Of a DNA stretch of 27,162 bases, positions 3,124-25,025 are shown one piece after another. The notes under the pieces are model-generated. The model was not told where the DNA came from. It saw only the letters and a program-made list of their open reading frames with translations, and ran no database searches. Position numbers and translations under genes: made by a program. The first letter of the stretch is position 1. Each line of letters begins with the position of its first letter. The DNA is from a virus, in IMG/VR virus record IMGVR_UViG_3300015360_000165, positions 1 to 27,162 of that record; one strand, 5' to 3'.

Positions 3124-3170
3124 ATTGCAATTTGCAGAAACCAAGGGATACTAACCTTAAAGTAGGTTTT

Positions 3171-4730
3171 ATGCCAAAATACAATTCTAAGAATCTCTGT
3201 GAACAGCTAGAACAAATCAAAGCTATGAACGCTGAGGGTTCTAAAGTTTCAGAAATTGCAATAATTCTAGGATGTGCCCCAGCCTCCATAAGAAAAATGC
3301 TTAAAAAGCATTCGATAAACATCGCCCCTGTTCCGCCTAAACTCAAAGATGCAGAATGCCAAGTTTGTAGAAAAATTTTTATATACAAGTATAGTGGAAG
3401 AAACAAAGTATGCTCTGAAGTGTGTAGAAGACAAGCCATAAGCTTAGGCAAGACAAAGTATACAAAAGCAGACAAAGAGCTAGTTATGGCACTTCGAACT
3501 CAGGGCTTAAAGATCAAAGAAATAGAAAAGCAAACTGGTATAAACATCAATACTGTCAAAAAGATCAATAGCATTAATGGCCTTCTTTCTGTAGAAGAAC
3601 GCCAACATCGATGTAAAGTTGGGCGCCTTGCAAGTAACCCAGAGGCTTATGCTGACATGCGAAATGCTTATTTAAAGAAAGCTACAAGTTCAGAGTCCTT
3701 AGAAGCAGTAAAAGCAGAACTGTTACTATTGGGTTGGGAGTATGTTTCAGGTTTTACCAAGAAAACTAGCTCTTTTCTGATCCGATGTCAGAGTTGCAAT
3801 AATAAAAGAGAAACCAGTAAGCTTTGGACTGTTCAAAAAGGTGCCTGTGCTAGCTGTTCTAATACAGGTGTTTCTAAACCAGAGAAAGAAATTGCAGACT
3901 GGATTGCTGGATTAGGGTTGATAGCTGAGCGTTACAAGTTTGAAACCATAACCAATGGAAGAGAAATAGATGTGTATGTGCCAGAAAAGGGCATAGGTAT
4001 AGAGTACTGCGGCTTATACTGGCATAACGAGAATAGTCCCTGGCCAAGAGATTATTCCAGTCATTTAAAAAAATTAAAAAAAGCACAAAGTGTCGGAATC
4101 CGACTAATAACTATATTTGAAGATGAATGGCTAAAACGCGGCCCTCAAGTTCGTGGTTTTTTAGCAGCTGCTTTAGGCAAGACAGATAAAGTCCTTGGAG
4201 CCCGCTCTTGCTTAGTAAAGTCTGTGGAAAAATCCATAGCTAAAAATTTTTTAGAGAAAAATCACATACAAGGAGCAGTTAATACTGAAGCATATTTTGG
4301 ACTTTATAACAAAAATGAGTTGGTTGGCATAGTTTCTGGTGGAAAACATCATAGAGGAAATCCTGGCCTAGTTTTGAATAGACTGGCTTTTGCAAGTGGT
4401 CTTCGAATTGCTGGAGGGGCTTCTCGTTTAGTTTCTGCTTTATCTTCCTGGGGCAAACTGCAAGGTTTAACCAAACTCATTACTTGGAGCGACAATCGTT
4501 GGAGTGCTGGCAAAGTTTATGCTGCCTGCGGATTCGAGAAAAAAGCAGAGCTTCCACCAGATTATTCCTATGTCTACAAAGGCTTAAGACTACCAAAACA
4601 AAGCTGCACTAAAAAAGTTTTACTAAGCAGAGGGGCGGTCGGAAACACAGAATCAGAAATGGCTAAAAGTTTAGGGTATTCTCGAATATGGGATTGTGGT
4701 AAAATTCGTTGGGAAATAGAAATTCCATGA
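3171..4730 (+). CDS. Vsr-like (EDxHD type) homing endonuclease 1
   Basis: Taken from the ATG at 3171 (519 residues); an in-frame ATG at 3132 lies within a few bases of the terminator and is less likely. In order: a helix-turn-helix near residues 10-47, a CxxC...CxxxC zinc-finger-like module (Cys63/66 and 81/85), a second helix-turn-helix near 98-135, and a CxxC...CxxC module (206/209 and 226/229). Then comes the nuclease core at about 237-320 with GREIDVYVP (Asp267), IEYCGLYWH (Glu278, His285) and TIFEDEW. This is the pattern of Vsr-related phage endonucleases such as I-Bth0305I and F-CphI. The C-terminal half (ESLEKNHIQ-like start near 360, RLAFASGLRIAGGASRL, ITWSDNRWSAGKVYAACGFE) resembles a GNAT fold often found in this family. 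It is AT-rich (30% G+C in one line), has no good ribosome site, and lies between the capsid terminator and a small gene. It is free-standing, not in a recognisable intron. Confidence 0.85.
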   Translation: MPKYNSKNLCEQLEQIKAMNAEGSKVSEIAIILGCAPASIRKMLKKHSINIAPVPPKLKDAECQVCRKIFIYKYSGRNKVCSEVCRRQAISLGKTKYTKADKELVMALRTQGLKIKEIEKQTGININTVKKINSINGLLSVEERQHRCKVGRLASNPEAYADMRNAYLKKATSSESLEAVKAELLLLGWEYVSGFTKKTSSFLIRCQSCNNKRETSKLWTVQKGACASCSNTGVSKPEKEIADWIAGLGLIAERYKFETITNGREIDVYVPEKGIGIEYCGLYWHNENSPWPRDYSSHLKKLKKAQSVGIRLITIFEDEWLKRGPQVRGFLAAALGKTDKVLGARSCLVKSVEKSIAKNFLEKNHIQGAVNTEAYFGLYNKNELVGIVSGGKHHRGNPGLVLNRLAFASGLRIAGGASRLVSALSSWGKLQGLTKLITWSDNRWSAGKVYAACGFEKKAELPPDYSYVYKGLRLPKQSCTKKVLLSRGAVGNTESEMAKSLGYSRIWDCGKIRWEIEIP

Positions 4731-6235: not shown

Positions 6236-6838
6236 TTAATTTCTATCTTCTACTAAAACAATACAATGGTGCGTATAGGAGCCCATTTTGGCCCCTAGCT
6301 CTACAGCTACATTCTCCATAATTCTTCCAATCATGTGAATATTCTTACTAACAATTATTAGAGCTTGAGCTCGCATTATGCCAGTGCAGTGCAAGCGATT
6401 GTCATCGTCTAAACGAAAGTATAGTTCGCGCAAACACTTCCACTCGCTGTCAGCTTCTAGCTTAATGCATGGAGCACAATGCTCTGTAAACGGTATAGTG
6501 AGAACTGCCCGTTTAGATTTAGGTTTTGTCTTTAAAGCAATCACTACGCGATCAATTTTGGCCTGCATGCCTAAGCTGTAATCGCCTTGACCTCCACCCC
6601 TTAAAGAAGAGAAGTGTTGGTAGGTCTCTGGCGTAGTTTTCTGAACGTCAATGTTATGAAGCGTGTAGGCCTCTAGTACTTCAATCGGAAACAAATCGGT
6701 TTCCATTGTGTAAGCTGTAGGGGACATGGTGTCGATTGTACCTATAAAGTTGTTGACTGCGCCGTTATTGTGGCGAAGCTGAAACTCCATAGACAAAACC
6801 ATTTCGTGAATACTGTAGTACAGCGCAGTATTTTTCAT
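6236..6838 (-). CDS. thymidylate-synthase-like protein
   Basis: 200 residues from the ATG at 6838, which overlaps the previous stop as TAATG; an upstream in-frame ATG at 6886 is less likely. The C-terminal half lines up with the ThyA fold: RAVLTIPF (110-117; compare RRIIVSAW), a Cys at 135 where the catalytic Cys of PCH sits, ELYFRLDDDNRLHC (compare FQFYVADGKLSC), MRAQAL (Arg156, compare QRSCDV), KNI (Asn166, at the position of the Asn that favours dUMP over dCMP), and AVELGAKMGSYTH. It is shorter than typical ThyA (about 260), PCH is KCL, the RS-x-D motif is RAQA, and the H-x-Y near the end is not evident. It may be a divergent synthase, a dUMP hydroxymethylase-like enzyme, or inactive. The adjacent kinase supports a role in pyrimidine nucleotides. 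Confidence 0.65.
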   Translation of the reverse strand: MKNTALYYSIHEMVLSMEFQLRHNNGAVNNFIGTIDTMSPTAYTMETDLFPIEVLEAYTLHNIDVQKTTPETYQHFSSLRGGGQGDYSLGMQAKIDRVVIALKTKPKSKRAVLTIPFTEHCAPCIKLEADSEWKCLRELYFRLDDDNRLHCTGIMRAQALIIVSKNIHMIGRIMENVAVELGAKMGSYTHHCIVLVEDRN

Positions 6839-7716
6839 TAGAAAACTGCGCCCTCTTTTTTTATTTTTAGCAATTCCTCTGGCCATTTTTTTTCGTAGAA
6901 GTTTTGAAGCAAAAGCTTTGCCTCTGCGGATGTTATAAAAATTCCTCTACCTGGACTGTCAAGACTTGGAAGTGCCAAGCTTACAGAATCAGAAGAGGAC
7001 GCTTTGAAGTAAAAAGGATCAACATCAAAACAACGAATACCAATAAAAATCCTAGGCCTGCCTAGAGGCTCGACAAAATGTTCCATTCTGATGTTGTCAA
7101 AAACAATTAAACTTCCGGGCTCGTGAGGAAGATGTACAGTCTTATTCTCAAAAGTGTCGTACAGAGATGTGCCGCGAAACGTACCCTCATTCTTGTTCTC
7201 AATGTTGATGCCAAAGACGTACCGAGCATAAAGGGCTTCTTTAACAATAAAAGTCCTTTCAGACCCAAGTTCGTAAGCTGAATAGTTTCCATCCCTGTGC
7301 CTTCGTAGAAATTTAGAAAGGCCAACAAAATTTTGAGAATACATTTGCCAGTTTAGCATTTTTCGATGCGAAGGCGGAACCGGAAATCCAATCAAGTGCG
7401 AAAGCAAGCTATCGTGAAAGCGAAGAAGTTCAATTATTGGCGCAGAAGACGTAGTGACGTGGGGGAGATCGCTTTGCTCTCCAGCCTCTATCACCATGCT
7501 TGCGTAACTTTCTCTAGAGTCGCTTTTCATTGACGGATATACGGCATTTTTTTCAAGGTTTGGAAGTGTGTAATGCTCTGCGTTAAAGTTAGGTATCTCT
7601 TTCTTGAGTGCATCCCCTTCTTTTAAACTGAGAAACTCTTGAACATAAGCATATCCTTTGTCTTTAAGGTCCGAAGATACTGTGTCTAATTTTAATCTTT
7701 CTAAAAAGCTCACCAT
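6838..7716 (-). CDS. probable 2-oxoglutarate/Fe(II) dioxygenase
   Basis: A 292-residue protein whose middle shows the marks of the double-stranded beta-helix oxygenases: His140-x-Asp142 in FLRRHRDG, a beta-rich section (ALYARYVFGINIEN), GTSLYDTFE, the turn HEPGSLIVFDN, a distal His213 in MEHFVEPL, and arginines at 220, 222 and 228 that could hold 2-oxoglutarate (GRPRIFIGIR). These enzymes hydroxylate a substrate using O2 and 2-oxoglutarate; relatives act on protein side chains, small molecules and, in the TET/JBP group, on methyl groups of DNA bases. The N-terminal 90 residues and the C-terminal helix are not recognised. It starts at an ATG overlapping the kinase stop (TAATG) with GGAGAAGGGGAAG before it. 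Being between a dTMP-kinase-like and a thymidylate-synthase-like gene points to a thymine or uracil nucleotide, or the DNA itself, as substrate; this is inference. Confidence 0.6.
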   Translation of the reverse strand: MVSFLERLKLDTVSSDLKDKGYAYVQEFLSLKEGDALKKEIPNFNAEHYTLPNLEKNAVYPSMKSDSRESYASMVIEAGEQSDLPHVTTSSAPIIELLRFHDSLLSHLIGFPVPPSHRKMLNWQMYSQNFVGLSKFLRRHRDGNYSAYELGSERTFIVKEALYARYVFGINIENKNEGTFRGTSLYDTFENKTVHLPHEPGSLIVFDNIRMEHFVEPLGRPRIFIGIRCFDVDPFYFKASSSDSVSLALPSLDSPGRGIFITSAEAKLLLQNFYEKKWPEELLKIKKEGAVF

Positions 7717-8414
7717 TATACTTCCCCTTCTCCGCCAATGTCATATTGGCTTAAAACTTTATTTACCTTTGCTTGAACCGCAGCAATTGAATCTGACTCC
7801 TGAACCTGGATGATTTGAAAATCAATGTCTCGACTAAAGCTGTAAAACGGAGACTGACGCATAGCTGCAACAACTTTTTCCTGAGTTTCCCTATTTTCCA
7901 AGCGCTCCACGACCTCGGTGCCGTCTTTAGAGGAACGAGAGGCTACTCGTTTTAACAACCATTCTACATTGTCCGGAATGAAAATTAAATGCAAGGCGCC
8001 GTATCTGCGCGCAATGTCTTTTTCGGCCAAAATCACGTCTCGGTGACATTGCTCAATAGCTGGCATACTCATGCCCTTTGCCAAAGCATAGGCTACGTGG
8101 CTCATAAGAGCACGGTCTTTGAGAACAACGTTTCCTTTAAATTCCTTCAAATTCTCTCGAGCAGTCTTGATGCCTTCTAAATCGGTCAGAGCAAACAGCT
8201 GCTCTTCTAGTTCGACGCTGTCTTTTGGAAATTTTGAATGAAGGAGCACTTTTCGCAAAGCTAATTGAAAATCGTCCGTTCCATCTCCTCCAAGAAGTCT
8301 GGTAGAGTGGATTTTAAGGCCCTTTTCGTTCAGAGACTTGGTCAATAGGTTAACTTGACTGGTTTTTCCGCAGCCGTCTGGGCCGTCTGCACAAATGTAG
8401 CGTATTTTTTTCAT
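7716..8414 (-). CDS. thymidylate (dNMP) kinase-like P-loop enzyme
   Basis: A 232-residue protein starting with an ATG preceded by TAGGAGC. The N-terminus has a Walker A loop in the form usual for dTMP kinases (ICADGPDGCGKTSQ, residues 7-20). LKDRALMSHVAYA matches the family's DR-x3-S-x2-AY motif that binds the nucleotide, and the later LLKRVASRSSKDGTEVVERLENRE resembles the lid region and following helix. Such enzymes phosphorylate dTMP, or a modified dNMP, to the diphosphate using ATP. It is the first gene of the minus-strand operon. Phages that carry modified thymidines often encode their own dNMP kinase, but ordinary phage dTMP kinases exist too, so substrate cannot be fixed from sequence. 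Confidence 0.85.
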   Translation of the reverse strand: MKKIRYICADGPDGCGKTSQVNLLTKSLNEKGLKIHSTRLLGGDGTDDFQLALRKVLLHSKFPKDSVELEEQLFALTDLEGIKTARENLKEFKGNVVLKDRALMSHVAYALAKGMSMPAIEQCHRDVILAEKDIARRYGALHLIFIPDNVEWLLKRVASRSSKDGTEVVERLENRETQEKVVAAMRQSPFYSFSRDIDFQIIQVQESDSIAAVQAKVNKVLSQYDIGGEGEV

Positions 8415-9772: not shown

Positions 9773-12631
9773 ATGAAGAAAGAATGGTTTTTAAAGAAAT
9801 TTGAAGCCAAAGAAACGGAGCTGAAAAAGTCTCCGGCGCCATTCATTCCAAACGAAGAAGGCGCCTTTGCTAAAGGCAAAGTCAAGGCTATTGTCAATTA
9901 TGATGCGCATCCAGAAAGTACAAAGAAAACTAAAACAGTAATGCTTCCAAACGGTCTTCGTTACGAGCGTCATGAACGCAAAGCCTCTGCAAAAATGCCA
10001 GGCGGTACTTTTCATTTACTATTTCATCCAAAGCATCAAGATCCAGTAGCTGCTATTGAAACTTACCACAATCATAACGACTACAACACAAAGTACCAGC
10101 AAGCAGCCGGAGTTGATAGCGTCCATGGAGACCACACAGTCCGAACCTCAAAAGTAGATGAAGAGCACAAAGGAAAAGGATACGGAAAGCAGCTTTATTC
10201 TGCAATTTTAGCTCATCACGTTCCTCAAGGAAACAAACTTTGGAGCGATGGTCAAGTTTCACCAAAGGCCCATGCTGCCTGGAAGTCCTTTAGAGGCAAA
10301 CCAGGAGTCAGCGGTTACATTGGACGCTATCCAAAAAACCCTAATCGCAGCGATGTTCAAGAAGGTTCGTACAATCACGACGAGCTCAAAGAACACCCGC
10401 ACTTTTTAATAAACGACAATCAGGAAGAAATAGCTTCTAGTCCCGAACACTTTCCTGCAGTAAAAGGTCTCCATTTTAGCGATCCTTACGCCGATAAGCA
10501 GGGTGGTAGATTAGCCAAGGCGGACGAAACGCAAGCACCAAAGCACAACGACACAATCAGACAGGTTGCACAATCCTACGCAGACAAAAAGGGCTTTAAG
10601 CTCGATCATGCAGCAACCAAGCTTAAAATAGATCCAAACCATTCGACAAAGCTGGCGCAGGCCTACGAAGGGATGAAGCACGACCCAGCTCACCCTCAAG
10701 TCAGAAGAGCTTACGATGCGTTGATAAACGAAACCAGCGATCAGTTTCACCATATTAAATCAACCGGCTTGAAGTTCTCTAAAATCAAACCCGACATGCA
10801 GAATCCTTACAAAAACTCAAAAGACCTACATGAAGATCTTAAGAACAATAATCACATGTGGTACTACCCAACAGAGCAAGGCTTTGGATCAGGTGACCCA
10901 GGTAAAGATCATCCTTTAATGCGTCAAACGGATCACAAAGACAATGAAGGGCAATTTATGCCCGCCAATGACGTTTTTCGTATAGTCCACGACTACTTTG
11001 GCCATGGTAAAGAAGGCTTTGGCTTTGGTGCAGCAGGTGAAGAAAATGCTTGGGCTCATCATAGCAAAATGTTCAGTCCCGACGCTCAAAAAGCTTTAAC
11101 TAGTGAAACACGCGGTCAAAACTCATGGGTTAACTTTGGTCCTCATGGAAAAGCCAATCAAGCCAATCCATCTAAAACGGTCTATGCTCAGCAAAAAGCT
11201 GGCTTACTGCCCGATTGGGCTTTAAATCACGAACAAAAGGATCTTTTAGGCAAGAGCGAAATCACTTTGAGTAAAGGTGAAAAAGGCGACTGGAAGAAGG
11301 AAGGGTATACTCATAAAGTACATCCACCAAAAGTTGAAATGTTTAACGGCAAGCATGACATTACTGAACACAAAATTACTGCTCACAACAAAGATGGTCA
11401 TAGAGTTGGTAGTTATCACTTTTCAGAATGGCCTGAAGCAAGCGAGCACAAAGGCTTGCTTCATACTACTTTCAGTGGAACAGACCCAGATCATCAAAGA
11501 AAAGGGCTTGCAACAGAAGCTTACAAACTTATTGAACACCATACTGGGAAAAAAGTTCACTCTGCTAATGGCAATCGTTCAGAAGATGCTAAAAAATTCT
11601 GGTCTCAGAAAAATAAACCTTTTGGAAAATCAGAAGAATTAGAAAAAGCTGTAAACAGTCCATCCAAGCATATAGGACTGGCCCGTCTTAAACAAATCAA
11701 GCAGGATCATAATCAAGGTGCTGGCGGTCAAGAATACGACGAGCAAGAACTTCACAATGCAATAAATGAGCGTTCTAACGCTCACGCAGAAAAGATGGTT
11801 CGCGATGCTAAAAGAAATGAGCACAAGCATCCAAACGAAGGCAAGGCCGACTACTCTTGGATGTTCAAGCAAAAGATGGCCAAAGGCGAACCTTTAGGTT
11901 TGTCTAAGTCTAACTACAAAGGCGGAGGTATAAGTCAATACAACGCCGCAGACAACGCTAGAAGGAAACAGACTCAAAACACTAGCAGTCAAACCGAAAC
12001 TGGTATTCAAGGAATTAAGGTCAAAGTAGGAGCTAACGTAGGTGGCGAGCAAGGTAAAGACAAATTGAACCGTGAAGCCAAAGAGTTGGCTGCCAAAAAC
12101 AGAAAACAGCCAGTAAACAAGCCACAGTTGTCAGACACAGAAAAAGCTAAAATTAACGCAGAGATGACGCTAAGGGCGCTAAAACAGAACCCTAAGAATA
12201 AGCTTGCAGCGTCTGAACAAATGTACCTTTCAAAGATGAGCAAGAGCGAACCTCTAGGTCTCTCTAAAGGTGAAAAAGGCGACTGGCAAAAAGAAGGGTA
12301 TAAGCTTTCTTACCATCCACATCAAAACGACGAAAGTTACTTTAAGATCCATGCCCACGACAAAACTGGAAAGCATGTTGGCACCGCCGAATTTACCCAC
12401 CATGATGACGGCAAACATATTCGCTCTTACGACGACGGCCAAAAATACGAAGATGCCAATGTCAGCGTCAACGTTCATCATGAACACAGACGCAAGGGTC
12501 TAGCAACAGCTATGTACCAGCATGCAGAAAAATCTACTGGAAAAAAGCTTAAAAATGTCGGCAAGAACAAAAGAACTTCTGACGGTCAAGCCCTCTGGGC
12601 TCAAAAAAATAAACCTTTTGGCACAAAATGA
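9773..12631 (+). CDS. 952-residue multidomain protein with three GNAT domains, possible polyprotein
   Basis: The longest gene here. Domains in order: about 36-190, a GNAT-type acetyltransferase (acetyl-CoA loop HKGKGYGKQLY, 132-142); about 256-485, a domain with HMWYYPTEQGFGSGD (361-375), HDYFGH (406-411), GEENAWAHH (422-430) and SETRGQNSWVNF (444-455); about 500-615, a second GNAT (HQRKGLATEAY, 574-584); about 625-820, a low-complexity helical linker; about 832-952, a third GNAT (HRRKGLATAMY, 905-915). GNAT enzymes move acetyl from acetyl-CoA to an amine. Between domains lie LAKAD (247-251), LGKSE (492-496), LSKGE (499-503), FGKSE (617-621), LSKSN (710-714), MSKSE (822-826) and LSKGE (830-834), the motif also found in the scaffold-like protein. 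This suggests cleavage into separate enzymes in the head. The middle domain is of a type I associate with large phage polyvalent proteins. It starts 4 nt after the adaptor gene with a weak ribosome site. Confidence 0.8.
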   Translation: MKKEWFLKKFEAKETELKKSPAPFIPNEEGAFAKGKVKAIVNYDAHPESTKKTKTVMLPNGLRYERHERKASAKMPGGTFHLLFHPKHQDPVAAIETYHNHNDYNTKYQQAAGVDSVHGDHTVRTSKVDEEHKGKGYGKQLYSAILAHHVPQGNKLWSDGQVSPKAHAAWKSFRGKPGVSGYIGRYPKNPNRSDVQEGSYNHDELKEHPHFLINDNQEEIASSPEHFPAVKGLHFSDPYADKQGGRLAKADETQAPKHNDTIRQVAQSYADKKGFKLDHAATKLKIDPNHSTKLAQAYEGMKHDPAHPQVRRAYDALINETSDQFHHIKSTGLKFSKIKPDMQNPYKNSKDLHEDLKNNNHMWYYPTEQGFGSGDPGKDHPLMRQTDHKDNEGQFMPANDVFRIVHDYFGHGKEGFGFGAAGEENAWAHHSKMFSPDAQKALTSETRGQNSWVNFGPHGKANQANPSKTVYAQQKAGLLPDWALNHEQKDLLGKSEITLSKGEKGDWKKEGYTHKVHPPKVEMFNGKHDITEHKITAHNKDGHRVGSYHFSEWPEASEHKGLLHTTFSGTDPDHQRKGLATEAYKLIEHHTGKKVHSANGNRSEDAKKFWSQKNKPFGKSEELEKAVNSPSKHIGLARLKQIKQDHNQGAGGQEYDEQELHNAINERSNAHAEKMVRDAKRNEHKHPNEGKADYSWMFKQKMAKGEPLGLSKSNYKGGGISQYNAADNARRKQTQNTSSQTETGIQGIKVKVGANVGGEQGKDKLNREAKELAAKNRKQPVNKPQLSDTEKAKINAEMTLRALKQNPKNKLAASEQMYLSKMSKSEPLGLSKGEKGDWQKEGYKLSYHPHQNDESYFKIHAHDKTGKHVGTAEFTHHDDGKHIRSYDDGQKYEDANVSVNVHHEHRRKGLATAMYQHAEKSTGKKLKNVGKNKRTSDGQALWAQKNKPFGTK

Positions 12632-13990: not shown

Positions 13991-14914
13991 ATGCCTAAAA
14001 AGGCCAAAGGCGAACAAAGAGTCGCTATCCCTCTAGAAGACAGCATACCTCAGATTTCCTTTAATCTGAATGCATTAGATAGTCTGCCTCGCCACCAAGG
14101 TCAGGAGTTTATTCATTTTAAAGCTATTTTGTCTCCCATCGGTCTCAGAGATCGCGGTGACTACAGACGCTCCGGCGAGCTAGATGTTCAAGCCCAGAAT
14201 GGCTACATTTACAAGTGCGCAGGTCAAGTGACTGGCGCTCTAACCTCCAACTCTAAAGCATCAAAGAACGGAGACGGTGGCAAAATTGACAGTGCTACAG
14301 GTTACTTTTCGTGCGGACGCTTTTACGACGCAGACGGAGAGTACCAGAATGGTAACCGCATTTACTTCCAGCCAGGTGACCGTCTCTACATAAGAAACAA
14401 AGACATAGACATGAAAGTGGTAGGCGAACAGCTAGCAGACTACAACCCTGACAGACCCACCCAGCTACAATACCCAGCCCTCAAGGTCGAGTTTGTTATG
14501 GACGGAAAGGGTAAAGAATATTTTTGTGGAAAAGACTACAAGATAGACAAGGACGGCTGCCTAGAATGGAAGGCTGGCAAGGCTCCATACTTTGACACAG
14601 CCACAGGAAAAGGGGCGGTACTATCTGTCCGCTATCTATACGATGCTCATTGGTACATTTCTAGACTCATCCATGAGGTCAGAGTCTCCAACATTACTGG
14701 AGAAGACGGCGTTCGGCGTGAAGAGCGTATGCCGTATTACCTTGAAGTTGTTAGAGAGTACATTTACCACAACCGCAACAACGGCGACCAAACCAAACCA
14801 GACCCGAAGTTAGTCAAAGAAGACCAGTCTAGGGCAGTAGAAAAACCAGTAGAAACAGCACCTTCTCCCAAGCCATTTGTAAAGGTACAAATGTCTGACA
14901 TAGAAGAAGAGTGA
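13991..14914 (+). CDS. putative neck/head-completion structural protein
   Basis: A 307-residue protein with a rare-residue-poor, beta-rich body: HFKAILSPIGLRDRGDYRR, a Cys-containing YIYKCAGQVTGAL, FQPGDRLYIRNKDIDMKVVGEQ, LKVEFVMDGKGKEYFCGKDY, GAVLSVRYLYDAHWYISRLIHE and RMPYYLEVVREYIYHNRN. A disordered, proline/lysine-rich tail follows from about residue 268. I associate this pattern with a conserved but unnamed phage structural family near the head-tail joining genes, not with an enzyme. The start lies 3 nt after the previous stop, with AAGGGAT-like sequence as ribosome site. Function is inferred from position. Confidence 0.65.
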   Translation: MPKKAKGEQRVAIPLEDSIPQISFNLNALDSLPRHQGQEFIHFKAILSPIGLRDRGDYRRSGELDVQAQNGYIYKCAGQVTGALTSNSKASKNGDGGKIDSATGYFSCGRFYDADGEYQNGNRIYFQPGDRLYIRNKDIDMKVVGEQLADYNPDRPTQLQYPALKVEFVMDGKGKEYFCGKDYKIDKDGCLEWKAGKAPYFDTATGKGAVLSVRYLYDAHWYISRLIHEVRVSNITGEDGVRREERMPYYLEVVREYIYHNRNNGDQTKPDPKLVKEDQSRAVEKPVETAPSPKPFVKVQMSDIEEE

Positions 14915-15389: not shown

Positions 15390-16343
15390 ATGAAAAAACA
15401 GGGTGAATTAGCAGCAACAATTTTAGGCGCTGACTTCGTGGAGAAACTCCAGAAGAACAGTGACGTGACGTTGCTTAAACCCGCTTCAGGTCTCCATATA
15501 GACGCCAACGAGATTGCGATTGCTTTAAACGTTGTACCTCGTTCAGTCCTAGGCTTCCTGGCAGCCAATATGCGTTCCATGCGCATCGGTGACAGCAAGA
15601 CAATCAAGTTAGAACCTTTAATTGGCATCAACGCTGCTGGTCATTTAAGTGGATCGGGTGCGCCAAGCGAGCACGTTCTTAGACTTACAAAATTAGATAA
15701 TGACATGTACAATGGCGAAATCGAAGGATCTGGCAAGATCTTAACCACTTTCAGGGGAAAGCCTCTTCCAGGAGTCGGTTTAGTTGTCATGAGCACTTAT
15801 GAGATGTATGACGGCCACGCAGCAGAACCAGCCAAGCAAATAGCAGAGCAGCCTCCAAAAGAAGCAGCAGCAGTACAGCACATGATTAATCAAGAAATGG
15901 TTATAAAAGCCGGTATTATTTCCGAGCTAACTCTCCAAGAGATTCTTAAGTTGAGAATCCAGACCGAGATGGCTCTTAGCTCTTTACGAGCGGAGATAGT
16001 AAGCATGGCTGCACATAGATTAGAAATTTCACAAGCACCAACTGAAACAACTGAAACAGAATCAAAACTTAAACGCTTCCTAGAGAATCGCGAGATCAAA
16101 AAAAAAGAAGCTAACACCTTCAACATCATCCTAGCCAAGGGTGACTCGGCAACGTGCCCAGACTGCCGCCAAAACGTCCTACAAGATGGAACCTTCAACG
16201 GATGCGTATGCTTCGGAGAAGATAGAAACCGAAAGATCTTCCTCAAGAAGACAGAATCGGGAGTGCAGATCAAGTTCGCCAAGGGCTGGGACCCGGAGAA
16301 CATGGAAATGCTTCTCGAAATTCTCAAAAGGAGAGGTAAATGA
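15390..16343 (+). CDS. virion-region protein with C-terminal zinc ribbon
   Basis: A 317-residue protein starting two bases after the previous stop. Residues about 1-140 form an alpha/beta region with a conserved-looking core (LGFLAANMRSMRIGDSKTIKL, ETEM). Residues 165-245 are helical. The C-terminus carries CPDC (256-259) and GCVC (271-274), a zinc-ribbon knuckle pair, preceded by LAKGD and followed by FGEDRNRKIFLKKTESGVQI and WDPENMEMLLEIL. A ribbon of this type next to late genes suggests binding to nucleic acid or another protein, such as a late transcription or assembly factor; the sequence does not tell which. It overlaps the next gene as ATGA. Confidence 0.65.
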   Translation: MKKQGELAATILGADFVEKLQKNSDVTLLKPASGLHIDANEIAIALNVVPRSVLGFLAANMRSMRIGDSKTIKLEPLIGINAAGHLSGSGAPSEHVLRLTKLDNDMYNGEIEGSGKILTTFRGKPLPGVGLVVMSTYEMYDGHAAEPAKQIAEQPPKEAAAVQHMINQEMVIKAGIISELTLQEILKLRIQTEMALSSLRAEIVSMAAHRLEISQAPTETTETESKLKRFLENREIKKKEANTFNIILAKGDSATCPDCRQNVLQDGTFNGCVCFGEDRNRKIFLKKTESGVQIKFAKGWDPENMEMLLEILKRRGK

Positions 16344-18226
16344 GCAATTTAAAAGCCTTAGTAGAAAAACTTAAAGCAGTGGCGGCGGAGGCCGAAGCAG
16401 CATTAAACCAAGAAGCAGGACAAGGACAAGCACAACCAGCAGCACCTTTAAAGAAAAAAAGCCCTCTCAGTAAGCCTGATTCTGCTCCTTTAAAAAAGGA
16501 CGTAGGTCAAAGCACAGACGCAACAATGAAGGAAGGCCTGAATGAAGACTGCAGTGCCAAACCGGAACTTAAAGGGCAAACAGCCCCTGCCGCTCAGACA
16601 GACATGGCAGACCAAGCAGCAGACCAAGCTCCTGAAGAAAAGGATGCCCAAGCCATGGACGCAAGTCCTGAAGCAAACAGTCCTCCTGAAGAGCAAAAAT
16701 TACCCCCTGACGCTGACGAGATCCCTAGCGATGAAATCAACCGTGACTCTCCAATAGGAGAGGATATGGACCAAGTACCTGGCACTGACGAAATGCCTTC
16801 TGTTGAAGAAGAAAACGGTGCTTCTCAAGCAGAAGATACTCCAGAGATGCAGCAAGAAAACGAAGGTGAAGCAGCTCCTCAAGAAGGAATGTGCTACCTT
16901 GCAGGCGACGGCGACAACATTGGAGCAAAGGTTGGTCAAGCCGTACTTAGCGACGACGTTGAATCTTTGCATTCAACAAGCCAAGCAATTAACGCTGGTC
17001 AAAATCTAGTAATGGATTGGTGCGAACAGAACGGTGGACGAGTTATCAGTGCTGGCGGCGACGAATTCGTTCTTGAAATGCCTAGCTGCGACCCTCAAGC
17101 ACTAGAAGATCTACGATCACAATATGCTCAAGCTGTAGGTGCTACATGCACAATTGGTGTAGGTACCTCTATGTCACAAGCAGGCAAGGCGCTAATTGCC
17201 GGCAAGCTAAACGGCAAAGACCAAATTTGCAATTATGACGAATCAATCGAGCAACAACTTCAGTCTGCACACGAAGGTGCTCAGGCTGCTGGCGGCGAAG
17301 CTCAAAAACAAGACGACCACTATTTATCATCTATGTACCAAGATAAGAATCAAGCCCCTAACGAGCAAGAGCAAGCAGACGAGCCTGAACAGATGATCGA
17401 CGCAGTAGCTCCTCCGGGAGAAGAAGCAGCTGATCAGAACCAAGAGCAGCAAGCAATGCTTGACGCAGTAGCTCAAGGTGGACAACAGGAAGGCTCCGAG
17501 GCCTCTCAAGATCCGGCGTTGAACGAAGCCGAAGAAGCTCCTGCTTCAGCCAATCAAGATCCCTTCCATGACGACTCAGACCCACGCAACCAGGACGAAG
17601 GTCAGCAAGACCCGTCAATGTCCGATGTGATGAACGACCAAGTTGATCGTGGCAACGGTGAAAACATCAAAGCCAAACTGGCCGAGATCCTTCAAGCTTT
17701 TCGAGCAGACCAGTCTTTTGTAGAAAACACACGCGAGGCCAACCCAGAACTTTACCGAGAAAGCATGGTCCTCCTTCAACAAATGATCAAGGTTGCCCGC
17801 ATGGTAGGCCCTTCAGCAGCTCCAGCAGACGCAGCCCCTCAGCAGGACCCAGCAGCTGCCCCTCAACCAGGCAGCGAGCCTCAAGCAGAAGAAAAAGCCC
17901 CTTTTCCTCCAAAAAAGGATGCTTCTAACAAAGATGGAGCACCTGCGGCTGAAAAAGAAACCAAAGACAAAGATCCAAAAAAGCCTTTTTCTAGCGCCGA
18001 CAAAAAGGACGAAAAGAAAGACTCTGAAAAGATGGAAAAGGCTGTTCAACAGCCTGGCGGCAAACCTGGAGAATCAAACATTGGCTCTATGGTTCGCACA
18101 GCTAAATTTAACAAAGAGTCTGGCTACCCAAAAGATGCCAAAAATACTCTAGAGCAAGCCAAGCAAGAACAGAAAAACGAACTCTACAGAACCAAGACTC
18201 AGCCTAAGCCAAACCTCCCTAAGTAA
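16340..18226 (+). CDS. acidic virion-region protein with GGDEF/mCpol-like cyclase domain
   Basis: A 628-residue protein. Residues 1-182 are disordered and acidic (Q, A, E, P-rich), 183-305 is a folded domain, 306-440 is disordered again, 441-490 is helical, and the tail is K/P-rich. The folded domain has the nucleotide-cyclase palm layout: LAGDGDNIG (Asp190/Asp192), a helix, then RVISAGGDEFVLEMP with an intact GGDEF (239-243), and later CTIGVGTSMSQAGKALIAGKLNGKD. DGD-x-IG plus GGDE resembles the minimal CRISPR-polymerase (mCpol) group and diguanylate cyclases, which make cyclic nucleotides. All expected metal ligands are present. It sits between structural genes and overlaps its neighbour as ATGA. 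A structural role with a vestigial enzyme is possible. Confidence 0.7.
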   Translation: MSNLKALVEKLKAVAAEAEAALNQEAGQGQAQPAAPLKKKSPLSKPDSAPLKKDVGQSTDATMKEGLNEDCSAKPELKGQTAPAAQTDMADQAADQAPEEKDAQAMDASPEANSPPEEQKLPPDADEIPSDEINRDSPIGEDMDQVPGTDEMPSVEEENGASQAEDTPEMQQENEGEAAPQEGMCYLAGDGDNIGAKVGQAVLSDDVESLHSTSQAINAGQNLVMDWCEQNGGRVISAGGDEFVLEMPSCDPQALEDLRSQYAQAVGATCTIGVGTSMSQAGKALIAGKLNGKDQICNYDESIEQQLQSAHEGAQAAGGEAQKQDDHYLSSMYQDKNQAPNEQEQADEPEQMIDAVAPPGEEAADQNQEQQAMLDAVAQGGQQEGSEASQDPALNEAEEAPASANQDPFHDDSDPRNQDEGQQDPSMSDVMNDQVDRGNGENIKAKLAEILQAFRADQSFVENTREANPELYRESMVLLQQMIKVARMVGPSAAPADAAPQQDPAAAPQPGSEPQAEEKAPFPPKKDASNKDGAPAAEKETKDKDPKKPFSSADKKDEKKDSEKMEKAVQQPGGKPGESNIGSMVRTAKFNKESGYPKDAKNTLEQAKQEQKNELYRTKTQPKPNLPK

Positions 18227-18235
18227 GGAGGCTCT

Positions 18236-18997
18236 GTGAGCGATCCAAAATACAGAATCGAAGTCGATGCAGCCGCAATGGCTGAAACGTTCGGCGAGCT
18301 AGCCAAAGAAGTAGAAGCAGCAATCGAGCAGGCCGTAAAGACCTCCTCAGCGATGACTTACGCTAAAGCCAACGAATTAGCAGCTGAAAAGCTGCGTTCT
18401 AGACGAAAAGACTATCAAGATGCGCTAAGCTATGAAGAGGTTGCCCCTGGAATATGGGTTGTGTCTCTGGACGAATCAGCGTTCTGGATTGAAGAAGGCA
18501 AGACCGCCGGCTCAATGGTGGACGATCTCTTACGTAAAAACCCCAAAGTATCCAAAGACGGTACCCGTTACAAGGTTATACCCTTTGACCACGGTAAAGC
18601 CCCTTCTCAGCAAACTAACAAAGCCAAAGAAATCACAGCACTTGTCAAAAAAGAGCTTAAAGCCCTTAAAGTGCCTTTTAAGAAAGTTGAATACAACTCA
18701 GACGGGTCACCCAAGCTTGGGAGAGTATTTTCTAAAAATATAGCCTCAGACAGGCCGACCAGCAAAGCAAAGTTTCCAGCCCTCAGCGGCCTTACCATCA
18801 CTCAGCGAAAACTAGAGAGCGGCAAGATCAAGCGCGATGTAATGACTTTCCGTATTGTGACTGACCGGCATAAGGAAGAAGGTCTCTGGTTTCACCCAGG
18901 CATGCCTGGAGTCAAAATCATAGACGAAGTCTTTGCCTGGATCAACCAAGAATTCGACTCTAAGATTCTTCCTGAAGTTTTAGAACGGTTCAGGTAA
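18236..18997 (+). CDS. putative tail-completion protein (HK97 gp10-like)
   Basis: 253 residues from a GTG start with AAGGAGG upstream (6 nt spacing). The N-terminal helix (AMAETFGELAKEVEAAIEQAV, then TYAKANELAAEKLRSRRKDYQDAL), a central W-rich segment (APGIWVVSLDESAFWIEEG) and a C-terminal WFHPGMPGVKIIDEVFAWINQEF fit the pattern of HK97 gp10-like neck/tail-completion proteins, which have a helix, a small beta domain and a W-x-HPG turn. They sit where head and tail join. The length is greater than typical, with an extra basic loop at about 115-180. It lies beside another neck-type gene. Confidence 0.5.
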   Translation: MSDPKYRIEVDAAAMAETFGELAKEVEAAIEQAVKTSSAMTYAKANELAAEKLRSRRKDYQDALSYEEVAPGIWVVSLDESAFWIEEGKTAGSMVDDLLRKNPKVSKDGTRYKVIPFDHGKAPSQQTNKAKEITALVKKELKALKVPFKKVEYNSDGSPKLGRVFSKNIASDRPTSKAKFPALSGLTITQRKLESGKIKRDVMTFRIVTDRHKEEGLWFHPGMPGVKIIDEVFAWINQEFDSKILPEVLERFR

Positions 18998-19007: not shown

Positions 19008-20033
19008 ATGGCTATAGTACAAGGCGATTTGCTCATAAAGAGGGCACTAGAATTAATGATCGAAGAGCTCGGAAAGAATCCGTGGCTTATTGAAGATGTT
19101 CTATCTGACGTAGTCACCGACCCTCTTTTGTCCGAAATTTACGGACAGAAAGAAGTAGACAACGCCAAAGAATGGTTTAAGAACAACAAGATCGCAGTGG
19201 TTATGAAGTACCGCAAAGATCAAATGCAGTTTCCGTGCGTTACCATTGCCATGGGTAGCTCTTCTGAATCAGAGAGCGACGCCCGTCTAGCCGATCAGTC
19301 TACAGAGGTTGAAGAGCTTACGCCAGAGAAGATCAACAAGCCTATTCCTTATGTAATAAAACCCTTCCCTGTAACAAGCTATGCGCTAGGCGTAATGGCT
19401 TTGCCAGAGGACGCAGACCTAAGCACGCTTGCCAAAGACATGCTCCTAATGGACCCAGCTACAGGAGACGCCTTTCCCATCAAGTCAATCTCCAACGCTG
19501 GAGTTGAGATAGAAGGGGCTCCAGCTTTGACGGCTACTAAGTACGGCATTATTCCCCAATACCGTTACTTCAGGGCTCGTCGTGAGATGGCTACCTTTAC
19601 CGAAGCTTACACCATTGGATGCCATGTTGGGTCAGGCGATCCAGCTCCCCTTTTGTGGCTTCACTCTATAGTTCTTTACGGTCTCTTGCGGTACCGCGAG
19701 TCTCTTTTTGAAGCTCGTGGTTACCAAATTTCTTCAGTGTCTAGCACGGACTTTGTCCGCTCTACAGATTTTGAAATAGACAGAGATGCGGCTTTTTCTC
19801 GCTGGATTAACATGAGCGGCAAGGTCGAAAACACATGGCTTAAGACTCCTCAAAGAGTTATTGAAAGCACTGTACTTTCTGCAAAAGACGCTACAGGCGT
19901 AGTCAAGAGAATTAAGATCATGTCCAACCTAGATAACAACCCAGCTATAGCTGACGACTCCAAGCAAGATTCTTGGGGCACTGTGAACGAACCCAACCAG
20001 AAACGCACCTACACCAAGAGGGACCCGAAATGA
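19008..20033 (+). CDS. putative neck/tail-terminator-region protein
   Basis: 341 residues. An N-terminal helical segment (LLIKRALELMIEELGKNPWLIEDVL), a central domain with FPCVTIAMGSSSESE, and YVIKPFPVTSYALGVMALPED, then PLLWLHSIVLYGLLRYRESLFEARGYQISSVSSTDF are characteristic of a conserved phage structural family located between neck genes and the tail sheath. The last motif, a hydrophobic helix followed by SSxDF, is used by tail-terminator type proteins to oligomerise, but the assignment is weak. The C-terminus is basic and disordered. There is no clear ribosome site (AGG is 13 nt away). It overlaps the 25-codon ORF at 20030 as ATGA. Confidence 0.55.
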   Translation: MAIVQGDLLIKRALELMIEELGKNPWLIEDVLSDVVTDPLLSEIYGQKEVDNAKEWFKNNKIAVVMKYRKDQMQFPCVTIAMGSSSESESDARLADQSTEVEELTPEKINKPIPYVIKPFPVTSYALGVMALPEDADLSTLAKDMLLMDPATGDAFPIKSISNAGVEIEGAPALTATKYGIIPQYRYFRARREMATFTEAYTIGCHVGSGDPAPLLWLHSIVLYGLLRYRESLFEARGYQISSVSSTDFVRSTDFEIDRDAAFSRWINMSGKVENTWLKTPQRVIESTVLSAKDATGVVKRIKIMSNLDNNPAIADDSKQDSWGTVNEPNQKRTYTKRDPK

Positions 20034-21075: not shown

Positions 21076-23220
21076 ATGAGCCTTAGACTAGCGGAATCAT
21101 TCGTAAACACTAACGTACCCGGCGCGTATACTGACGTAAAAGTCCAGTCTACACCTGTAGGTATTGGTGCTTCCGGTAATATCTTAATCATCGGCGAAGC
21201 TGATGGCGGTGCTGACTATAGCGCTGAAACCCTGAAGGATAATTCCTTCGGCCCTAGCCAGGTTGACAAAGTCGCTGCCAAGTATATCTCTGGCCCGATC
21301 GTCGACGCTATGCGCGCTATCAGTGCTCCAAGCAATGATACCGACATTGCTGGTTCGGCAAGCCGAGTTTTCATCTTGAAAACAAACGGTTCAACTAAAG
21401 CGCAAGCTACTGTTGACACGGATTACGGAACTCTTAGAGACCAGAACTTTGGTCAAGGCGGAAACGCTTTTTCTTACAAAGTTCTGCAAATCACTGGTGA
21501 GACTGCTCCCACTGTTACGAGCTCAGCTCTGACAATTGGCGACGGATCTATCTTTGATGGTCTTTCTTTCTCAGTTCGTCCAAACGGCGGAGCTGCAACT
21601 GTCATCACATTGTCTAGCACAATGGCGAATCACGACACTGCTGCTGAATTAGCTGCTGAAATTAGTGCGCTTCTGCCTGCCGGCATGACTTGCATTGCTC
21701 CAGACGCTGCATCAATCAGAATCTCTCTTGCTGTTGACAACTCGGCTTTCCGTAAAGGAAACGGTCGTTCTTTTGAACTGATCGATTCTACTCCGGGTGA
21801 CCTTGCTGCTTTAAACGTAACTGCCAACCTGATCGTTTCTGCTACAGAACCATCTATAGAGATCAACGTTTTGCGTCCAGACCTTAATGCCAACGAGCTG
21901 CTTGATGCTTCCGCTGACATTGCTTTGACAATAGGGTACCAAGGTACTACTGCTGTCATGACGATCTCTGGAAACACACTGACCACCACTGTAACAGGTG
22001 GTTCAGGCGCCAACCAAACGATCAACCTTTCTCAGATCCCAACCATCAAAGCTCTTTCTGACCTGATCAACTCTATGGCGGGTTACTCTGCTTCAGCTGA
22101 TACTGGTTCGACTTCTTTGAGTACAGCGGTCCTTGACCGTGTAACTGCGATTGGTATCTGCTCTTCTGGCGTATCAAAGCAACCAGGAAGAGTCAAAAAG
22201 GCCGCTTATAGCTTTCAAAAAGCTTTAAGTACTTCTCGCTACCTTAGCTTCTCTCCGACAGCAACAGCTGGCTTACCTGCTCCTTCTGCATCGTACTCGT
22301 ACCTTGCTGGCGGATCTCGTGGAGCTACAACTGCGGCAGACATCGTAGACGCTTTAACAAAAGCTGAAGGTGTTTCGGTTAACTTTGTAGTACCATTGTT
22401 TTCGCGTGACGCTTCAACCGACATCGCAGACGGTGCTACTGACTCTTCTTCAACTTATACAATTGACGCTATCCATGCTTCTGCAAAGAACCATGTGTTG
22501 AAAATGTCTTCTGTAATGATGAAGAAGAACCGTATTGCAATGCTTTCTAACAAAGGAACCTACGCTCAGTCTAAGGCTAAGTCTGGTACCGCTGCTTCTT
22601 ACCGCGCCACTATGGCTTTTCAGGATTGCGCTCAGACAAACAGCTTCGGCCAAGTAGTCACGTACCAACCTTGGTTTGCTTCAGTAGTAGCTTCTGGTAT
22701 GCAGTCTGCTGGCTTCTATAAAGCCATCGTTAAGAAGTTTGCTAACATTATTTCTTACGTCGATCCTGCTGGATTTGACTCTGGTAACCCTGGAGACATC
22801 TCTGACGCTCTTGACGCAGGTTTGTTGTTCCTTGAAACTCCATCCTCTGGAGTTCGTTGGGTATCTGACCAAACTACTTATGGCTTTGACACAAATTTTG
22901 TGTATAACAGCTTACAAGCAGTTTACGGTTCAGACATCTTAACTTTAGACTTTGCTGACTCTCTTGAGAAGGCCTTTGTTGGTAAATCACTTGCTGACGT
23001 TGATGCAGCTACTGTTGCTTCATTCATCACTGAGAAAATGGACGGTTACAAGAAATTGAAACTGATCACATCTTCTGACGACGCACCACTAGGCTACAGA
23101 AACGTAAACATCGAAATCAACGGCCCAGTTTTGCGTGTAAACGTAGAAATCAAGCTTGCGACTGCGATCTACTTCATCCCGATCACAATCGAGATCAGCC
23201 AGGTTCAACGGGCTGGGTAA
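21076..23220 (+). CDS. contractile tail sheath protein
   Basis: A 714-residue protein with AAAAGGAG before the ATG. The N-terminus (AESFVNTNVPGAYTDVKVQ, with VPGAY at 14-18) and the following GNILIIGEADGGADY are the typical opening of sheath proteins of contractile tails. The long middle (about 130-400) is a beta-rich inserted domain exposed on the outside. The C-terminal conserved part begins at about 400 (SYSYLAGGSRGATTAADIVDAL, VNFVVPLFSRD) and ends with the typical subdomain GYRNVNIEINGPVLRVNVEIKLATAIYFIPITIEI. Sheath subunits form the sleeve that shortens to drive the tail tube into the cell. It is followed by the tube gene. Confidence 0.95.
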   Translation: MSLRLAESFVNTNVPGAYTDVKVQSTPVGIGASGNILIIGEADGGADYSAETLKDNSFGPSQVDKVAAKYISGPIVDAMRAISAPSNDTDIAGSASRVFILKTNGSTKAQATVDTDYGTLRDQNFGQGGNAFSYKVLQITGETAPTVTSSALTIGDGSIFDGLSFSVRPNGGAATVITLSSTMANHDTAAELAAEISALLPAGMTCIAPDAASIRISLAVDNSAFRKGNGRSFELIDSTPGDLAALNVTANLIVSATEPSIEINVLRPDLNANELLDASADIALTIGYQGTTAVMTISGNTLTTTVTGGSGANQTINLSQIPTIKALSDLINSMAGYSASADTGSTSLSTAVLDRVTAIGICSSGVSKQPGRVKKAAYSFQKALSTSRYLSFSPTATAGLPAPSASYSYLAGGSRGATTAADIVDALTKAEGVSVNFVVPLFSRDASTDIADGATDSSSTYTIDAIHASAKNHVLKMSSVMMKKNRIAMLSNKGTYAQSKAKSGTAASYRATMAFQDCAQTNSFGQVVTYQPWFASVVASGMQSAGFYKAIVKKFANIISYVDPAGFDSGNPGDISDALDAGLLFLETPSSGVRWVSDQTTYGFDTNFVYNSLQAVYGSDILTLDFADSLEKAFVGKSLADVDAATVASFITEKMDGYKKLKLITSSDDAPLGYRNVNIEINGPVLRVNVEIKLATAIYFIPITIEISQVQRAG

Positions 23221-23750: not shown

Positions 23751-23783
23751 TTGATCTTCATCTTCTTCGATAATCTAGTAAGT

Positions 23784-25025
23784 ATGAAGAAGTTAACCTT
23801 AGAAGAAATACAACACCAGACTTTCTTAGAAGGTCATCAACTCCTCTCTCAAGAATACAAAAACAATAAATCCAAGCTGGCGTTTACCTGCCCTGCTGGC
23901 CACCTCTACACCGCTGCTTGGTGCGATTTTCAAGCAAAAAAGCGCTGTAGGTTATGCGGCATCAAGAAAGCCCACAAGGGTTGTAAAAAGTCTCCTGAAA
24001 AAATTTCCGAGCTGCTAGAAAAGCGCGAATATACTCGCACTGCTCAAGAAGAATACATAAACAACAGAACAAAAATAAAATTGCGCTGCTCTAAAGGGCA
24101 TGCGTTTGCCTCCGACTGGTTACACCTTCAAGCAGGGCATGGTTGTCCTTCTTGCTTTTCTTTGATTAGCAAACAGCATAAAGAAATTGCTGAATACGTC
24201 AGAAGCCTAGGAGTAGGTTGCGAGGACAATGTTCGAAACGTAATAGACGGCGAACTAGATGTCTATATTCCAACAAAGCGTTTGGCTATTGAATTAGACG
24301 GGCTTTATTGGCACTCAGAAAACAGAAAGCCTGACATTAAAAGTCGAAATCGAGCAAAGTTAGTCAGTTGTCGAAAGCACAAGGTAAGCCTCCTTGTTGT
24401 GTACGAAGACGAATGGAAATCCCTTGCAAAAAGAAAAATAGTCCAGGCTATGATTCGCTCCCGTATAGGAGTTTTTGATCGAAAGCTGCGAGCTTCGAGT
24501 CTCGACCTGAGAACTGTTGCAGTTAAAGACCGGCGAAACTTCTTTGAGGCTTCTCATATAGATGGAGATGTTCCTTCTAAAAGCGCTTTTGGCTTGTTTT
24601 TTGAAAATAAATTAGTTTGTTGCTTAAGCTTAAGGTGGAATACTAAATATGGATGCTTGGAAATTGCGCGCTTTGCCACCCTTCCAGGAACAACGGTTCA
24701 CGGAGGCCTTGGACGTCTGTTAAAAAAAGTTGAAGGACGCCTGATTACTTATTCCAACAATAGAGTAGGAGACGGCAAAGCCTACGCTGCATGCGGGTTT
24801 GCGCTGGCAGACAAAGAAGAGCATCAAAGCTATTGGTATACAGATTTCAAAGAGAGAGTTTGGCGTTTTCGGTGCAGAAGAGTATCTGAACCAAGCGTTC
24901 TTTTACTTTACCCTTCAGAGAGCGAACAGGCCTTAAATGGGGTTTTTTCGTATCTTTTCAAATCCAAACGAAGAGACGTCTTTAAAATCTGGGACTATGG
25001 GCATCGCCTATGGGTCAAAAACTAG
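23784..25025 (+). CDS. Vsr-like (EDxHD type) homing endonuclease 2
   Basis: 413 residues from the ATG at 23784; an earlier in-frame ATG falls within the hairpin region. Two CxxGH...CxxC zinc modules in tandem (Cys36/His40/Cys55/Cys58 and Cys102/His106/Cys121/Cys124) take the place of the helix-turn-helix parts in the first endonuclease. The nuclease core at about 128-215 has ELDVYIP (Asp159), AIELDGLYWHSE (Glu170, His177) and VVYEDEW. The C-terminal half (FFEASHIDGDV, RFATLPGTTVHGGLGRLL, ITYSNNRVGDGKAYAACGF) matches that of the first enzyme, so the two share nuclease and GNAT-like parts but differ in DNA-recognition modules. It has no strong ribosome site. It sits between the tail tube and the next tail gene. 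Confidence 0.85.
   Translation: MKKLTLEEIQHQTFLEGHQLLSQEYKNNKSKLAFTCPAGHLYTAAWCDFQAKKRCRLCGIKKAHKGCKKSPEKISELLEKREYTRTAQEEYINNRTKIKLRCSKGHAFASDWLHLQAGHGCPSCFSLISKQHKEIAEYVRSLGVGCEDNVRNVIDGELDVYIPTKRLAIELDGLYWHSENRKPDIKSRNRAKLVSCRKHKVSLLVVYEDEWKSLAKRKIVQAMIRSRIGVFDRKLRASSLDLRTVAVKDRRNFFEASHIDGDVPSKSAFGLFFENKLVCCLSLRWNTKYGCLEIARFATLPGTTVHGGLGRLLKKVEGRLITYSNNRVGDGKAYAACGFALADKEEHQSYWYTDFKERVWRFRCRRVSEPSVLLLYPSESEQALNGVFSYLFKSKRRDVFKIWDYGHRLWVKN

Follow-up and report, generated by a model that had tools for sequence, protein, structure and literature searches.

An mCpol enzyme domain held in the virion gene cassette of a phage lineage

Comparison of the phage domain with described palm enzymes

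The characterisation of mCpol as an enzyme of bacterial immunity dates from 2025; its product keeps a toxic effector silent. In the available parts of the two descriptions, characterised members of the family make 2′,3′-c-di-AMP and related defence products (PMC12657218, PMC12657230). For OptS, the mCpol of the Panoptes (mCpol-2TM-beta) system (Klebsiella OptS, PDB 9mnr and 9pd0; also 9nwn), the same texts report that residues D6 and D57 are critical for catalysis (Sullivan et al. 2025, PMC12657218), and that S30 and N34 confer ATP selectivity in OptS/mCpol (Doherty et al. 2025, PMC12657230; also PMC12657218). Related palm folds are found in GGDEF diguanylate cyclases and in Cas10/Cmr2 of type III CRISPR. 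Among phage proteins, multidomain polyvalent proteins have been predicted to be packaged and injected, and the rare GGDEF and RelA/SpoT domains within them were considered as possible cyclic-nucleotide weapons in the available text of that study (Iyer et al. 2017, PMC5512222). The word mCpol is absent from the main text of the latter paper and from that of a 2021 jumbo-phage survey (PMC7824862). Likewise, a full-text literature search, assessed by titles and the starts of abstracts and leaving bioRxiv largely outside, returned no report of a phage-encoded mCpol.

The locus described here lies in the virus record IMGVR_UViG_3300015360_000165, all 27,162 bases of which were analyzed (hereafter the window). 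A sequence-only reading had placed a GGDEF/mCpol-like palm between acidic, disordered flanks in a protein of the late region, and the motif positions that it gave, DGDNIG at residues 190–195 and GGDEF at residues 239–243, were correct for the 628-aa ORF at 16340–18226 (Table 1). The start codon of this gene overlaps the stop codon of the upstream gene (ATGA), with the motif AGGAG just 5′ of it. The encoded protein consists, in this order, of (i) an acidic low-complexity N-terminus; (ii) the mCpol domain; (iii) an acidic linker; (iv) a conserved, probably helical segment; and (v) a charged low-complexity tail. Its composition confirmed the acidic flanks: aspartate and glutamate together account for 23% of residues 1–180 and 24% of residues 306–440 (vs. 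14% of residues 181–305), and hydrophobic residues for only 14% and 13%, respectively (vs. 30%). The conserved segment around NPELY, probably helical as judged from its sequence rather than by a prediction tool, is common to all 20 proteins inspected from this gene slot, of which 17 are the distinct mCpol rows (the window and Mx1 among them) and three lack mCpol.

Table 1. Features of the mCpol locus and of its surroundings in the window
Feature	Position	Strand	Basis
952-aa multidomain protein with GNAT acetyltransferase stretches	9773..12631	+	
phrog_1004 virion structural protein (head and packaging)	13991..14914	+	PHROG match; homologues in syntenic loci reaching that far
Conserved gene, 317 aa, directly upstream of the mCpol gene and overlapping its start codon	15390..16343	+	Syntenic loci
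Slot protein, 628 aa	16340..18226	+	ORF list; composition
mCpol domain, residues 186–298 (PF18182 positions 1–113 of 114)	16895..17233	+	Profiles; AlphaFold; OptS match
DGDNIG, first metal motif, from residue 190 (D190 = OptS D6)	16907..16924	+	Alignment
S214 to N218 (S214/N218 = OptS S30/N34)	16979..16993	+	Alignment, letters
GGDEF hairpin motif, from residue 239 (D241 = OptS D57)	17054..17068	+	Alignment
Conserved segment around NPELY, residues ~443–495, probably helical	17666..17824	+	Alignment
phrog_16819 family, downstream neighbour of the mCpol gene	18236..18997	+	PHROG match
Weak tail-terminator match, SP10 termination protein / phrog_1000 (Pfam E 0.001, below cut-off)	19008..20033	+	
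Tail sheath protein, phrog_279	21076..23220	+	

Two mCpol profiles matched the slot protein above their cut-offs, i.e. PF18182 from Pfam (E = 1.8 × 10−16, 60.9 bits, cut-off 26.4) and NF033576 from NCBIfam (44.3 bits, cut-off 40). The only PDB sequences matched at E < 0.1 were two mCpol/OptS proteins (1.9 × 10−6 and 4.4 × 10−6). PADLOC returned only weak Cas10b and CARF_HEPN_mCpol matches. Because the cut-off of PF18182 also admits Cas10-like frames and is insufficient on its own to define mCpol, profile, fold, and tree were used in combination.

This property of the profile was seen in a sample of 400 genomes belonging to the same phylum as an Anaerolineae genome, where most PF18182 matches above the cut-off were located in Cas10-like frames of 550–730 residues, the Cas10 or mCpol label of the bacterial frames being assigned by us from length and sequence. 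Since the cut-off accepts Cas10-like palms, automatic counts of mCpol may be inflated.

Structure prediction, which the sequence-only reading had suggested as a check against mCpol, Cas10, and diguanylate cyclase folds, favoured mCpol. The domain was predicted with a mean pLDDT of 95.3 (AlphaFold2, 16 sequences) and aligned with OptS (9pd0) at a Z-score of 18.5 and an rmsd of 1.7 over 120 residues, with 28% identity over the aligned fold. The best PDB fold matches were 9pd0, 9mnr, and 9nwn, OptS/mCpol entries reaching Z-scores of 17.7–18.5. The next family was a GGDEF domain (Z = 13.2), with GGDEF, Cas10, and Y-family polymerases all scoring around 13. OptS was also the top Foldseek match (E = 1.5 × 10−9). 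Among viral structures, A0A6J5L1I5 matched best, an uncharacterised protein from an uncultured Caudovirales phage (rmsd 1.9, TM 0.85 normalised by query length, 22% identity).

The tree comprised 40 rows, namely 17 phage copies, 8 bacterial mCpol, and 15 Cas10. All phage copies formed one group (support 97/93), and together with the bacterial mCpol rows they were split from the Cas10 rows at 100/100; the phage clade sits inside mCpol as sampled by these eight bacterial rows only. The long branches of two copies, from the isolated Myxococcus phage Mx1 and from the locus L032, paired with each other, which is possibly an artefact, but the neighbour gene paired them too (100/98).

A chance motif and a diguanylate cyclase were rejected, and the domain did not qualify as Cas10. 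A chance motif is at odds with the Pfam match, the PDB sequence matches, and the predicted fold. Diguanylate cyclases share the palm fold and, with the window copy, the literal GGDEF; however, no GGDEF family was among the Pfam matches of the slot protein at E ≤ 1, the fold score was lower (Z of about 13 vs. 18.5), only three of the 17 homologues have the pentapeptide (those of the window, L001, and L017), and the nucleotide-selecting residues of the window copy fit ATP. Cas10 has a related palm, but the Cas10-type profile PF22335 scored 22.1 bits, below its cut-off of 27, and the domain falls outside the Cas10 group, on the opposite side of the tree. Thus, the mCpol part of the earlier reading stood, and its diguanylate cyclase part did not.

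As judged by profile, model, and tree, the domain is a genuine member of the mCpol enzyme family, and catalysis would be expected by homology. With Panoptes OptS it shares family, fold, catalytic aspartates, and the ATP-selecting serine and asparagine. In contrast to the sampled stand-alone bacterial frames of 125–201 aa, it is embedded in a 628-aa protein of a virion cassette, and no effector gene was identified. A known enzyme family is found here in a new place, fixed in the virion gene cassette of a phage lineage. Our best explanation, which we put forward tentatively, is that the lineage possesses an active mCpol enzyme that is used against cyclic-nucleotide defence of the host.

The gene cassette and the history of the domain

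The late-region setting given by the sequence-only reading agrees with the location of the gene in a head/tail cassette. The gene family directly upstream (15390–16343) is present in the syntenic loci that reach it and has no match in two Herelleviridae. The gene at 9773–12631 has a counterpart in Mx1, at the corresponding position, with ART-PolyVal, NUDIX, and GNAT domains. The slot protein resembles polyvalent phage proteins, as these are presented in the available text of PMC5512222, in having an enzyme domain within a large virion-cassette protein, encoded near a multidomain protein with GNAT (window) or ART/NUDIX/GNAT domains (Mx1). In contrast to polyvalent proteins it has one recognised enzyme domain, mCpol, rather than several; several are found in the 9773–12631 gene product and its Mx1 counterpart. 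These neighbours make a role of mCpol as a virion-delivered enzyme plausible.

Further elements were noted around the cassette. A homing endonuclease (phrog_3339, window 3132–4730) is inserted among the structural genes, and so is a gene at 23751–25025 which resembles a homing endonuclease by eye. Three genes on the minus strand at 6236–8414 are opposed to the cassette, one of them (7716–8414) being nucleoside monophosphate kinase-like by eye. In Mx1, thymidylate synthase and dNMP kinase genes follow the capsid gene. Searches for Rfam families and tRNAs found none in the window.

For a linkage scan of viral contigs, the phrog_16819 neighbour served as a probe independent of mCpol. Of the 23 loci found, the slot gene was readable in 20, the other three (L028, L030, and L033) reaching too little upstream. 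The mCpol domain was present in 17 of the 20 readable slots and absent in L026, L027, and L029; in the case of L026, no mCpol match was obtained throughout the 170-kb record. Mx1, for which the literature search found no paper, carries a degenerate mCpol in the same slot. The cassettes of two Herelleviridae, LysYB2 and Goe26, are similar, but neither an mCpol gene nor a gene of the 15390 type could be recognised in them. A genome-contig scan with a four-phage alignment found no relative, and tblastn gave weak matches (E of 0.04–0.6) to two small faecal phage records and one Erwinia phage.

When the neighbour-gene tree was rooted on the Herelleviridae, the mCpol-less phages fell inside the mCpol-bearing set. 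Two changes of mCpol presence are required on this tree, the simplest combination being one gain and one loss. Recent capture from bacteria was rejected, as the phage sequences make up a single clade and mCpol occurs across the tree of the cassette itself. Seen in these comparisons, mCpol is an old and mostly active-looking module of the lineage, fixed in the virion-gene cassette, once inactivated and once lost. Most simply, an ancestor of the lineage would have captured mCpol once and fused it to a disordered protein encoded in the neck/tail cassette, and vertical descent would have maintained it since then, mostly with an intact active site.

Conservation of the active site

Residue conservation was counted in 17 distinct phage rows, among them the window and Mx1; L013 and L015, near-copies of L016, had been removed. 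D190 and D241, which align with the catalytic D6 and D57 of OptS, were both kept in 14 of 17 rows. Taken singly, D190 was kept in 14 rows (S in Mx1, N in L022, and H in L032) and D241 in 15 (A in Mx1 and T in L032). The start of L032 can be aligned in two ways, either with H at position 190, as counted here and as in its sister Mx1, or with D and a three-residue gap; position 241 is T under either alignment. Other positions of the motifs ranged from invariant to rare: D192 and G240 (17/17 each), S214 (15/17), E242 (12/17), and F243 (3/17). Without the Mx1/L032 pair, the remaining 15 rows had a mean pairwise identity of 42% (range 29–68%), and D192, G240, and D241 were among 12 invariant positions. 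The dN/dS ratio was 0.15–0.29 in the three of five mCpol pairs yielding an estimate; over all seven pairs compared, dS (NG86) was estimable in these three, the pairs without a value being window/L001 for mCpol, the C-terminal segment, and the neighbour gene, and L019/L021 for mCpol.

Both ATP-selecting residues are present in the window copy (S214 and N218). On the simplest reading, the window phage would encode an active cyclic dinucleotide synthase that probably uses ATP. The asparagine was kept in 4 of 17 rows, with N, D, R, Q, K, V, and E all seen at the N34-equivalent position. As the other 13 rows carry a different residue here, products may differ within the lineage, and some relatives may use other NTPs.

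Loss of the acidic ligands in homologues had been named in the sequence-only reading as a sign of a purely structural domain. Such loss does occur, but in a minority: both acids were lost in 2 of 17 rows (Mx1 and L032), one was changed in 1 of 17 (L022), and the entire domain was absent in 3 of 20 slots. The L032 copy is still predicted to adopt the mCpol fold (pLDDT 93.7, OptS Z = 16.9), a result that may be biased by an alignment of mostly active relatives. Since Mx1 and L032 no longer have the acids and one subclade lacks the domain altogether, catalysis is, as far as these sequences tell, not essential to the slot protein.

An alternative that we consider somewhat unlikely starts from these losses and takes the slot protein as a neck/tail assembly or scaffold part, in which mCpol would have been domesticated for dimerisation or nucleotide binding, any catalysis being incidental or vestigial. 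The persistence of the predicted fold in L032 after loss of the acids, their loss in Mx1, and the lack of the domain in three phages would agree with such a role, as would the constant location of the slot immediately before the phrog_16819 gene in the readable loci and the C-terminal segment being the invariant part of the protein. However, both aspartates persist in 14 of the 15 rows that remain once the inactivated pair is set aside, in spite of the sequence divergence among them, and two metal motifs are more than a purely structural domain would require. Moreover, the cassette of the two Herelleviridae sampled contains no recognisable equivalent. With intact, inactivated (Mx1), and missing versions in one and the same gene slot, the lineage provides natural controls for testing what catalysis contributes.

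Proposed role and variation among close relatives

According to the reading that we prefer, an active enzyme directed against cyclic-nucleotide defence, mCpol should by homology dimerise and join two ATP into a cyclic dinucleotide, e.g. 2′,3′-c-di-AMP. The slot protein would be made together with the virion parts and possibly be packaged and ejected with the DNA. The cyclic dinucleotide thus supplied could be read as an "all quiet" signal by Panoptes-type effectors, or it could otherwise jam such signalling. If the enzyme is active, the phage may make the bacterium's own immune signal, and the keeping of a mostly intact mCpol in a virion cassette would amount to direct viral use of an immune synthase.

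Panoptes would be the first target to consider, since products of precisely this type silence its effector. In the most specific form of the proposal, the phage brings an OptS-like enzyme as a virion-carried counter-weapon, so that the toxic effector of the host stays nucleotide-bound despite depletion of the signal; we regard this form as unlikely. An "anti-anti-anti-defence" of this kind is expected but not described in the available text of Sullivan et al. (2025, PMC12657218). Nine related records were searched for Acb1 and Acb2: L019 with intact and Mx1 with inactivated mCpol (149–170 kb), L026 without mCpol (170 kb), and six records of 34–99 kb that are probably fragments. Neither protein was detected in any of the nine, with a T4 control positive for both. 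As Acb1 and Acb2 were not found, the simplest reason for needing protection from Panoptes is missing in the searched records, which weighs mildly against an anti-Panoptes role.

The cyclic dinucleotide could instead feed ordinary host pathways, i.e. receptors of c-di-AMP, c-di-GMP, or cGAMP, and influence physiology, host receptors, or the timing of lysis rather than defence. The same chemistry would serve this end, the variable N34 equivalent would be compatible with different products in different hosts, and viral fold matches include phage proteins named GGDEF or diguanylate cyclase. We nevertheless hold this use to be quite improbable, given that the domain falls within the mCpol family, of which the characterised enzymes produce defence nucleotides (PMC12657218 and PMC12657230, in the parts available), and that a GGDEF profile match is absent. 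Finally, it is very unlikely that mCpol belongs to a phage-carried defence or exclusion system against competing phages: a defence system does use mCpol as its synthase component, and invader-made cyclic nucleotides could act on rival elements (Iyer et al. 2017, PMC5512222, available text), but an exclusion gene would hardly be expected in a structural operon, and the profile of a Cap15-type (2TM-beta) effector (Cap15_CD_rec) matched none of the nine related records in a search whose controls gave no match either.

The linkers of the slot protein vary within the lineage. Those of L004, L031, L026, L027, and L029, a subclade including its mCpol-less members, contain many CxxC pairs (CPYC and CKYC) reminiscent of small zinc sites, and L019 and L023 also have a few CNCP pairs. 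In the near-identical phages L016 and L014, the acidic linker of the mCpol protein (L016:8497-9789 and L014:1229-2530) contains in-frame tandem repeats of DQYDEYQ that differ between the two. The first ~280 bases of the L014 mCpol (1238–1517) also differ from L016, while the phages are otherwise 97–100% identical, and a gene that we read as an HNH-type endonuclease (L014:302-1228) lies just before the mCpol start codon of L014. An adaptive swap of the mCpol domain was considered for this pair and rejected; insertion of the endonuclease upstream together with co-conversion (homing) explains the difference more simply.
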